From the NCBI GenBank assembly GCA_027692465.1, contig JAQEYU010000001.1, positions 1,063,338 through 1,127,337 on the forward strand: a DNA stretch of 64,000 nucleotides. Reading direction: 5' to 3'. Positions within the stretch are counted from its first letter, which is position 1; every line of letters starts with the position of its first letter. The position numbers were made by a program, and so were the translations under genes. Shown here in pieces: positions 23,415 to 64,000 of the stretch. This DNA is from Enterococcaceae bacterium OF42-14pH9A (GTDB lineage Bacteria > Bacillota > Bacilli > Lactobacillales > Enterococcaceae). The notes beneath the pieces were generated by a model, which did no database searches, had not been told where the DNA came from, and saw only the letters and a list, made by a program, of their open reading frames with translations.

Positions 23415-23502
23415 AATCACACTTAACATCACTTTATGGATGAACTTTCAGAGTGTTATGATGTTGGAAGGCTTGATATCTTTCCGAGTCTAGCTCAGCG
23501 CT

Positions 23503-23555
23503 GCATCCCGGCTTTTGTCGGGATGTATGCACTCATCATAAAGTGCTTTTTTTTT
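23503..23555 (+). terminator. Terminator of the ribosomal protein cluster
   Basis: Two hairpins in series: CATCCCG/CGGGATG (23504-23525), then GCACT/AGTGC (23529-23546) followed by nine T. They lie about 90 nt after the rplQ stop. Confidence 0.85.
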
Positions 23556-61716: not shown

Positions 61717-61765
61717 CTCACCGTACCCAAACGGTCTGGTCAGGCGGCTGTTTTCGGCTTATAAT
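61703..61765 (+). promoter_or_regulatory. Overlapping terminator and promoter between phosphoesterase and DUF2829 genes
   Basis: Terminator: AAACAGCCG (61703-61711) pairs with CGGCTGTTT (61745-61753), with TGAC/GTCA inside. Promoter for the next operon: TGGTCA (61737-61742), 17-nt spacer that runs through the terminator right arm, TATAAT (61760-61765). Leader of about 145 nt before 61916. Confidence 0.65.
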
Positions 61766-61915: not shown

Positions 61916-62137
61916 ATGACATTTGAAGAGATCCTGCCGCAACTGAAAGCCGGCAAAAAAATCATTCGTAAAGGCTGGAGCGGCTTTGAACTGTATGTCA
62001 CATTGGTTTCCGGGGAAGTCTATGACGGCGCACCGGTGACTCCCTATCTGCTCATCAAAACCAGCGATGAAGGCTTTTCCAGCTTTGCACCGACTGTTTG
62101 CGATATTCTGGCAGATGATTGGGAGATCGTGGCATGA
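61916..62137 (+). CDS. DUF2829 protein, Tad2 (Thoeris anti-defence 2)-like
   Basis: 73 residues covering one complete DUF2829 domain: MTFEEILPQLKAGKKIIRKG at the start with the RKGW element (18-21), FAPT (57-60) and the diagnostic C-terminal DILADDWEIV (63-72). In phages, Tad2 proteins of this family form tetramers that bind and sequester immune cyclic nucleotides (Thoeris gcADPR, and others). Here it is the first gene of a chromosomal operon, with AAAGGAGTG before the ATG, and its TGA overlaps the dehydrogenase ATG (ATGA). No phage gene is near. The family call is firm from the motifs; sequestering activity is inference. Confidence 0.82.
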   Translation: MTFEEILPQLKAGKKIIRKGWSGFELYVTLVSGEVYDGAPVTPYLLIKTSDEGFSSFAPTVCDILADDWEIVA

Positions 62138-62922
62138 CCCTGCAGGGAACAGCTGATTTCAGCTTTGAAGGAGCGGTCGTGTTGGTGACCGGGGCTGCTT
62201 CCGGTATCGGACAGGCACAGGCACGGGCCTTTTTGGCTGCCGGTGCCTGTGTCTTTGCCGTTGACATCCAAGATGATTTTTCAGCTTTGCTGACTGCTGC
62301 CAAAACAATCGGTGCAAAAGCAGTCAGCCGATTGGTGTGCTGGACCGCCGATGTTTCGCAGCCGGAACAGTGCCTGAGTACAGCTGCAAAATGCCGGGAA
62401 CAGTTCGGGCCGGTGTCGATTCTGTTGAACACGGCCGGTAAGTTGGACGGTTATAAAAACATTTTAGAGACTGATGAAGACCTCTGGCATACAGTTTTAC
62501 GCACGGATCTGGACAGCATGTTTTATTTGACCAAAGCCTTGTTACCCGACATGCTGGCAGCCGGACAAGGTACAGTCATCAATATGGCATCGGTGGCCAG
62601 TTTTGTCGGGGGCGGCGGTGGGATCGCCTACACTACAGCGAAACATGCCGTCGCCGGCTTCACCAAGCAGTTGGCTTTGGATCACGGGGCTGCCGGAATC
62701 CGGGTCTTGGCGTTGGCTCCCGGAGCAATCCGAACTCCCATGAATGCAGCGGATTTTGCCGGTGATGCCGCGATGGCTAAATGGGTTGCCGAAGAAACGC
62801 CCTTAAAGCGCTGGGCTGAGCCGGAAGAGGTGGCAGAAGTGACCTTGTTTGCAGCCAGTCGCGGTGCCGGTTATATGCAGGGAAATATCATTGAAATCGA
62901 CGGAGGCTGGCTGCTGAAATGA
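62134..62922 (+). CDS. Short-chain dehydrogenase/reductase (FabG-like SDR)
   Basis: 262-residue classical SDR: NAD(P)-binding TGAASGIG (19-26), NTAG (99-102), catalytic S153, Y166 and K170 in YTTAK, and PGAIRTPM. Acts on a hydroxyl/keto group of an unknown substrate; often named 3-oxoacyl-ACP reductase by similarity, but it is not in a fab operon. D43 after strand 2 (FAVDIQ) suggests NAD preference. ATG 62134 overlaps the DUF2829 stop and its own TGA overlaps the next ATG, so three genes are coupled. Confidence 0.9.
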   Translation: MTLQGTADFSFEGAVVLVTGAASGIGQAQARAFLAAGACVFAVDIQDDFSALLTAAKTIGAKAVSRLVCWTADVSQPEQCLSTAAKCREQFGPVSILLNTAGKLDGYKNILETDEDLWHTVLRTDLDSMFYLTKALLPDMLAAGQGTVINMASVASFVGGGGGIAYTTAKHAVAGFTKQLALDHGAAGIRVLALAPGAIRTPMNAADFAGDAAMAKWVAEETPLKRWAEPEEVAEVTLFAASRGAGYMQGNIIEIDGGWLLK

Positions 62923-63491
62923 AAGAGGAATTGACAGAAACACAAGCTGCGGCTTGGATCGCCGAGGATCCGAAGCTGATGGCAATTTTGCGGATCATTG
63001 CCGATTGGAATCTGTCGGAGGGTTGGCTGACCGCCGGTACGCTCCGTAATTATTTGTGGGATCGACTGGCAGGTTCGAAAACAGCACATGCGTCCAATGA
63101 TGTGGATGTTGCTTTTTTTGATCCCGGACTGGACTATGAGGAAAGTGAGACTTTAGGACGTCAGTTGGCCGCCCATTGGCCCCAATACAACTGGGAGATC
63201 AAAAATCAGGCCCACATGCACACCCATAATTTTTCCGAGGAGCCGTCTTACACCGGGACGTTGGATGCCGTCAGCAAATATCCGGAAACCTGTACTGCGT
63301 TGGCCTGCCGGCTGGATGATGCAGGATACCCGCAGTTCCGAGCTTTATGGGGCCTGGCTGATCTGGCGGCTTTTGAAGTTCGCCCAACGCCGCATTTTTT
63401 GAGTGCTCCTCGACGAATGGCTGTCTATCAAAAGCGGGTCGCTACTAAAAATTGGCAGGAAAGCTGGCCGCAATTAAAAATCCGCTCTTGA
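62919..63491 (+). CDS. Nucleotidyltransferase-like family protein (NTP_transf_6 type)
   Basis: 190 residues of the PF06042-like group of small proteins with a nucleotidyltransferase fold: AGTLRNYLWDRL (39-50) and the metal-binding DVDVAFFD with D61 and D63; the C-terminal half has QFRALWGLADLAAFEVRPTP and LSAPRRMAVYQKRVATKNW. Function unknown. Starts inside the SDR stop codon (ATGA). Confidence 0.82.
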   Translation: MKEELTETQAAAWIAEDPKLMAILRIIADWNLSEGWLTAGTLRNYLWDRLAGSKTAHASNDVDVAFFDPGLDYEESETLGRQLAAHWPQYNWEIKNQAHMHTHNFSEEPSYTGTLDAVSKYPETCTALACRLDDAGYPQFRALWGLADLAAFEVRPTPHFLSAPRRMAVYQKRVATKNWQESWPQLKIRS

Positions 63492-63540
63492 AAAAACAAA
63501 GCCGCTTCAGTTATTATAATTACCAGCGGCTGGTCCGCAC

Positions 63541-63598
63541 TGCACCACTTCAATCCTTTGGGTGCAGCTTATTACCGGGAAAGTCCCGTAAAGGAGAA
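63541..63598 (+). ncRNA. preQ1-II riboswitch upstream of queT
   Basis: Stem TGCACC (63541-63546) with GGTGCA (63561-63566); the loop has TCCTTT (63554-63559), complementary to AAAGGA (63590-63595) of the ribosome binding site, which gives the pseudoknot; joining segment GCTTATTA; small hairpin CGGGA/TCCCG (63576-63588). This is the layout of the Lactobacillales preQ1-II (COG4708) riboswitch: ligand binding hides the ribosome binding site. The gene behind it, queT, fits. Confidence 0.85.
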
Positions 63599-63604
63599 CG
63601 ACAA

Positions 63605-64000
63605 ATGAATAATCCTGAAAAACTGCGTTCAGAATCTGTCTGGACCACACAAGAATTGACCAAGATGGCGTTGGTGGCTGCTCTGTATGTAGCGGTAACT
63701 TTCGTCTTGCAGCCGGTAGGATATGGTAATATCCAGTTTCGTGTCGCTGAGATGTTCAACTTTCTGGCACTGTACAACAAGCGCTATGTCTGGGCCGTGA
63801 CAATCGGGTGCGCTATCGCCAACTTGGCTTCCCCTAATGGGATTCTTGATGTAGTGGTCGGCGGTATCTGTACGCTTTTTGTGTTGCTTTTGTGCCGATA
63901 TGTGACCCGTAACCTTAAAGATCTGCGGGTCAAAATTGCCATTACCGCAGTGATTTTTGCTGTTTCTATGTTCACTGTCGCAGCTCAGCTGACGATCTTG
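63605..64000 (+). CDS. queT: Queuosine precursor ECF transporter S component QueT (partial at window end)
   Basis: The first 132 residues are in the window. After a polar start (MNNPEKLRSESVWTTQELTK) come hydrophobic spans with ALVAALYVAVTFVLQPVGYG, NIQFRVAEMFNFLALYNKRY and GCAIANLASPNGILDVVVGG, the pattern of QueT. It imports preQ1/preQ0-type queuosine precursors and needs the EcfA1A2T module (23.8-26.3 kb). The ATG is preceded by AAAGGAG, which is the pseudoknot partner of the preQ1-II riboswitch. -10-like TATAAT at 63515-63520. Confidence 0.92.
   Translation, partial: MNNPEKLRSESVWTTQELTKMALVAALYVAVTFVLQPVGYGNIQFRVAEMFNFLALYNKRYVWAVTIGCAIANLASPNGILDVVVGGICTLFVLLLCRYVTRNLKDLRVKIAITAVIFAVSMFTVAAQLTIL

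Follow-up and report, generated by a model that had tools for sequence, protein, structure and literature searches.

Near the end of the window, by which we mean the whole 64,000-nucleotide stretch of Enterococcaceae bacterium OF42-14pH9A DNA analysed here, a gene for a DUF2829 protein opens a row of genes read in the same direction (Table 1). Its reading frame is intact over 73 codons, and an AAAGGAG motif is visible by eye shortly 5' of the start. Stop and start overlap in an ATGA at the junction with an SDR oxidoreductase gene and again between the latter and a PF06042 gene, just as the preliminary description had stated for each gene of the operon. The start of queT was placed at the ATG with which the riboswitch match closes; the PF06177 match (104.1 bits) falls on residues 67-176 of a longer open frame, 63458-64000. 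The consensus promoter scan returned five sites in the region versus 1.5 in shuffles, and these sites are not evidence of function.

Table 1. Features of the DUF2829 locus, with one RNA element from elsewhere in the window
Feature	Position	Strand	Basis
L17DE ribosomal-protein downstream RNA element	23450..23525		59.5 bits vs cut-off 37
TGGTCA-17-TATAAT, promoter-like site 5' of the DUF2829 unit	61737..61765	+	consensus scan
DUF2829/Tad2-like protein, chromosomal type, 73 aa, ATG start	61916..62137	+	PF11195, predicted fold, tree
ATGA overlap, DUF2829 stop/SDR start	62134..62137		
SDR oxidoreductase, NF005118/PRK06550 type	62134..62922	+	313 bits vs NCBIfam cut-off 270
ATGA overlap, SDR stop/PF06042 gene start	62919..62922		
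PF06042 NTP_transf_6 protein	62919..63491	+	161.8 bits
preQ1-II riboswitch-like leader of queT	63507..63607	+	36.3 bits vs Rfam gathering 47, E 5.4e-4
queT, preQ1 ECF transporter S component, truncated at the end of the window	63605..64000	+	PF06177

The nearest relatives, L032 and L033, have the same gene order. The PF06042 gene was found in only 4 of the 80 named related loci and in 3 of 30 further ones, and therefore lies outside the conserved unit; the third gene, described earlier as having a nucleotidyltransferase fold, is indeed coupled to the SDR here, but it is not a SMODS protein and does not belong to that unit. A Pfam scan of the eight proteins encoded between 58992 and 64000 found no phage family except the Tad2-like domain itself. 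Together with the conservation of the locus, this agrees with the initial view of a host gene outside any visible prophage.

The match of the window protein to the Tad2-like family (Pfam PF11195) spans residues 1-72 and, with 82.9 bits against a gathering cut-off of 25 and an E-value of 2.3e-23, is far beyond chance, so that the complete 73-residue DUF2829 domain first described is borne out. An AlphaFold model of the protein has a pLDDT of 94.8, and the top Foldseek and VIA matches of this predicted structure are Tad2/AcrIIA7. The closest solved structures include Tad2 bound to His-ADPR and to gcADPR, and a sequence comparison with solved structures gave seven matches, each of them a Tad2 protein or AcrIIA7. 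As modelled, the window protein is thus a member of the Tad2 fold. The known Tad2 proteins (Thoeris anti-defence 2; SPO1 gp34.65, MoTad2 and HgmTad2/AcrIIA7, all PF11195) are phage-encoded, and their ligands comprise the NAD-derived gcADPR and His-ADPR, among others (PMC13299392, in excerpt). The window protein differs from them in being chromosomal and coupled to an SDR. It is also shorter: the matched Tad2 chains have 88-104 residues (one AcrIIA7 construct has 158), whereas 121 of 124 distinct sequences of the chromosomal type have 73-79. In alignments to 8v3e and 8sme it lacks the 12-residue insertion between b2 and b5 that is reported to bind cyclic dinucleotides in solved Tad2s, an insertion also absent from a few short phage-type proteins (71-72 aa).

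The pocket-forming segments have changed as well. The gcADPR pocket is built by the loops b1-b2, b3-b4 and b4-a3, strand b4 and helix a3 (PMC12043709, in excerpt). At positions 22, 24, 25, 26, 52, 57, 60 and 62 the chromosomal type is unlike 116 distinct phage-type sequences, a comparison set weighted to one lineage. The phage motif N22-K24-G25-M26 reads S/G-x-E-L in the chromosomal type, and E25 and C62 are invariant in 124 of 124 distinct sequences. Judged from the alignments, the differences from phage Tad2 in these segments are themselves conserved, the comparison being by segment and not by individual ligand contact. The preliminary description had held that a lack of Tad2 pocket residues would speak against its proposal, and at the level of sequence this is what we found.

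The SDR gene lies directly 3' of the DUF2829 gene in all 131 distinct junctions, drawn from 179 bacterial loci, and immediately 3' of it in each of the named loci (80/80, the best 80 of 406); chromosomal-type loci fetched later, where the contig was long enough, likewise have it directly downstream. Stop and start overlap by 4 bases in 59 of the 131 junctions and by 1 base in 17, with a median spacing of -4 and a maximum gap of 167, single values being rough because start codons were picked mechanically. The comparison of whole genomes leads to the same picture. Among 59 relatives, the nearest of which shares 24% of sampled words, 34 have a PF11195 match (33 of the chromosomal type) and 34 an SDR over the cut-off; the two genes are adjacent on the same strand in 33 and both absent in 25 (Fisher p 9e-16, uncorrected for kinship). 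The one SDR-only genome, G057, keeps a queT-SDR arrangement without any PF11195 match, so the SDR can do without DUF2829. No fusion of the two proteins was found among the best 120 of 443 matches (7995 candidates scored). In almost all genomes examined DUF2829 and SDR thus come as an inseparable genetic pair, and the conservation that had been proposed as a check turns out to run deep. Two tandem copies of the DUF2829-SDR-QueT block occur in Virgibacillus proomii (L089, 8992-10646 and 13391-15045), and Enterococcus sp. 10A9_DIV0425 has two DUF2829 copies, one whole and the other apparently split, both with the SDR after them (L034 2644-2859, L085 8808-9165).

The SDR retains the active-site S, Y and K and an Asp after beta-2, all conserved across 132 aligned rows; we take this Asp to be of the NAD type. 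The protein passes the cut-off of the PRK06550/NF005118 model, named '3-oxoacyl-ACP reductase'. This name is the annotation of the model's members, and nothing in our analysis supports a role in fatty-acid metabolism.

Within the best 80 of 406 matches, the closest named copies are those of enterococci such as E. diestrammenae, and named loci reach as far as Lysinibacillus, Virgibacillus, Kurthia, Gracilibacillus and Sporosarcina. PF11195 matches occur in 130 of 295 sampled Lactobacillales genomes, one of which has the phage type only, and a control genome of Lactococcus lactis has matches to both PF11195 and QueT. Among the 59 relatives, one (G013) carries the longer phage-type gene as its sole copy, amid apparent head and terminase genes (L166) and without the chromosomal module, and another (G018) carries both types. 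The phage-type proteins noted in Enterococcaceae are encoded at L166 5653-5922 and L167 5246-5515. In a tree of 66 proteins the sampled chromosomal type forms one side of a 100/100 branch; this tree is unrooted, with few columns and an unsettled bootstrap, and is compatible with descent from host to phage or from phage to host.

Some copies in viral collections appear to be bacterial. Ten 'viral' loci of IMG/VR (L115-L124) have a DUF2829 gene of the chromosomal type, and four of these loci retain the SDR next to it. In L115 (6734-8219) an element with integrase and replication-type genes ends about 95 bp 5' of a Streptococcus-type DUF2829 gene, the gene ending 95 bp upstream being an integrase, so that a chromosomal gene is entered as viral in the collection; L116-L124 have this gene type too. 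A further locus (L132), truncated at the contig end, is of the chromosomal type by its residues. An SDR was looked for alongside the gene in nine phage-type viral loci (L125-L131, L133 and L134), and none was found. Three phage records have 80-90% identity to the DUF2829 protein, including 'Listeria phage LM 4-14-1' (OR848486.1; L226 4645-5621), an unverified wastewater contig with DUF2829 and SDR that looks like bacterial contamination within a phage collection.

These observations bear on two readings that start from phage biology. In one, the gene is a phage sponge domesticated and kept by the host, which would bind cyclic ADP-ribose-type or cyclic-dinucleotide signals and thereby tune or guard the host's own Thoeris or CBASS. 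The Tad2 fold and the His-ADPR- and gcADPR-bound Tad2 among the nearest solved structures speak for it, and domestication was among the initial proposals for this gene; we now regard it as very unlikely. Tad2 sponges are encoded by phages or prophages, and here the gene has a conserved chromosomal locus and its own side of the tree; the residues typical of the Tad2 pocket segments are replaced in the window protein; and the b2-b5 insertion tied to cyclic dinucleotides is missing, all 12 residues of it. A search of the 59 genomes for the Thoeris STALD and CBASS SMODS families, a check suggested at the outset, detected STALD in two, one with and one without the chromosomal gene, and SMODS in four, split two and two, so that neither marker tracks DUF2829. 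The constant SDR partner would also be left unaccounted for. In the other reading, a decayed or mobile prophage remnant sits beside an SDR gene by chance. Related genomes do hold prophage Tad2-like genes, as in L166, but the conserved length, the unfailing SDR neighbour, the presence in 33 of 59 genomes and the nine phage-type viral loci with no SDR alongside make such an origin barely credible, and we reject it.

A third gene recurs with the pair, namely queT, which encodes a PF06177 preQ1 ECF transporter and has riboswitch leaders in many loci, a context out of sight in the preliminary description. Across 19 divergent loci, the SDR is present within about 6.5 kb in all 19, QueT in 18 and every other listed neighbour in at most eight; these loci were hand-chosen, all by DUF2829, with ORF calling recovering DUF2829 in 18 and neighbours compared against all ORFs of the fetched loci. 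In a wider set of 118 distinct loci, two of which end too soon on their contigs, QueT is near the pair in 82 of the 116 that can be assessed (75 downstream and 7 upstream) and absent nearby in 34, Streptococcus-type loci included. The order thus changes while the linkage stays. Two QueT matches are present in 23 of 33 genomes with the pair versus 2 of 26 without it (p 1e-6). A tree of 77 QueT proteins (57 linked, 20 unlinked) requires 2 label changes versus 17.8 in shuffles; 19 of the 20 unlinked proteins form one clade (100/99) apart from the 57 linked ones, and the remaining one, of Streptococcus type and on a long branch, is placed apart. This separation indicates that the linked QueT did not arise by recent copying of the unlinked one, though the linked copies need not be a single clade. 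The epoxyqueuosine reductases QueG and QueH occur both with and without the pair, which therefore fills no missing queuosine step, and a full-length QueC is present in two Lysinibacillus carriers, which may thus synthesise preQ0 themselves.

queT is governed by preQ1 riboswitches, in which ligand binding reduces expression (PMC12519234 and PMC11625349, in excerpt). We found preQ1-II-like leaders just 5' of queT in 11 of 20 and 3 of 11 loci (14/31), all below the Rfam cut-off. In the usual gene order, which is also that of the window, this leader lies 3' of the pair and ahead of queT, so that the pair would not be under its control. Seven loci have queT first, 2-24 nt from DUF2829 where the gap is resolved. 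An above-cut-off riboswitch occurs in just two of these, both from related lactobacilli: preQ1-I elements precede queT-DUF2829-SDR in L098 (Ligilactobacillus agilis; 49.1 bits) and L185 (47.6 bits), where queT and DUF2829 are separated by 12 and 13 nt, respectively. Two others have preQ1-I matches below the cut-off (L179, 27.2 bits; L093, 18.8 bits), L181 and L170 have preQ1-I-like and preQ1-II-like leaders recognised by eye only, and L180 has neither a preQ1 riboswitch match nor a by-eye leader. Unlinked QueTs carry preQ1 riboswitch matches too (8 of 20, above the cut-off in 3), so such a leader does not set the DUF2829-SDR module apart.

Because the chromosomal protein is conserved alongside a single oxidoreductase and, in many loci, a preQ1 transporter, its job is probably metabolic and not one in anti-defence. 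Our preferred reading, to which we give an even chance, is that it is a long-established Tad2-fold protein devoted to one SDR as its small partner in a queuosine-precursor step. DUF2829 and the SDR would be made together and would bind each other or pass substrate between them; the Tad2-like pocket, its specificity reshaped around E25, E52 and C62, would hold a purine-like metabolite, for which a 7-deazaguanine (queuosine precursor or derivative) is the most plausible candidate, and the SDR would oxidise or reduce this metabolite to feed the preQ1 pool. As preQ1 is expected to lower expression of the riboswitch-led arrangement, the module should serve the acquisition or synthesis of preQ1. The queuosine link is favoured because the linkage survives rearrangement and because the pair stands, in two genomes, behind a riboswitch that preQ1 should switch off. 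It is weakened by the loci without a nearby QueT, by the indifference of QueG/QueH to the pair, by the leaders on unlinked QueTs and by QueC in the two Lysinibacillus. A narrower version, which we put forward tentatively and consider rather unlikely, is that DUF2829 binds the nucleobase as a subunit of an oxidoreductase, undescribed so far, for the salvage of queuosine precursors: a 7-deazaguanine would enter through QueT, DUF2829 would grip its purine-like ring, and redox chemistry by the SDR on the side chain would lead to usable preQ1. The SDR might, for instance, oxidise the cyclopentenediol of queuine and thereby release the amine, preQ1.

It is also conceivable, if somewhat doubtful, that the SDR and its partner act in an unrelated metabolic step, with QueT nearby through conserved gene order and no shared pathway. 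The link to the SDR is universal in the loci examined and that to QueT is not (missing in 34 of 116), a riboswitch-like leader of its own frequently precedes queT (11 of 20 loci), and the window has a separate promoter-like site for it. Such a reading fits poorly with QueT being linked even in the seven rearranged loci, with its staying beside the SDR in G057, where DUF2829 is absent, and with the separate clade of 19 of the 20 unlinked QueTs. A sensor or regulator that binds an ADP-ribose-like NAD derivative and gates the SDR would suit the NAD-derived ligands of Tad2 and the NAD-type Asp of the SDR; we judge it improbable, as E25 and E52 are acidic and lie in segments that, we infer, hold the diphosphate ligand in phage Tad2, and QueT would go unexplained. 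As the sensor and buffer roles first suggested would have it, the protein may still bind a nucleotide-like ligand of some kind.

The open-licence PMC literature, in the portions accessible, yielded no description of a DUF2829-SDR-QueT module. The term 'dehydrogenase' does not occur in the main texts of three QueT/preQ1 papers (PMC11130926, PMC12519234, PMC11625349), nor do 'DUF' or 'DUF2829' in those of the first two; the listed papers pairing 'Tad2' with 'queuosine' appear, from titles and the beginnings of abstracts, to concern an unrelated tRNA deaminase. At the family level, DUF2829 proteins have been detected in the proteomes of E. faecalis (PMC10533825, in excerpt) and S. suis (PMC8125046, in excerpt). 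Pfam and UniRef name such proteins 'Thoeris anti-defence 2-like'. A large branch of the family appears to serve a metabolic enzyme in a housekeeping role; these names may therefore mislead, as may any count of 'viral' Tad2. The chromosomal branch provides a testable lead on the origin of the Tad2 sponge fold, and the module is a candidate step in queuosine-precursor salvage by lactic-acid and related bacteria. If the salvage proposal is true, phage Tad2 sponges and a host enzyme subunit would be two branches of one fold, of which the host branch is possibly the older.
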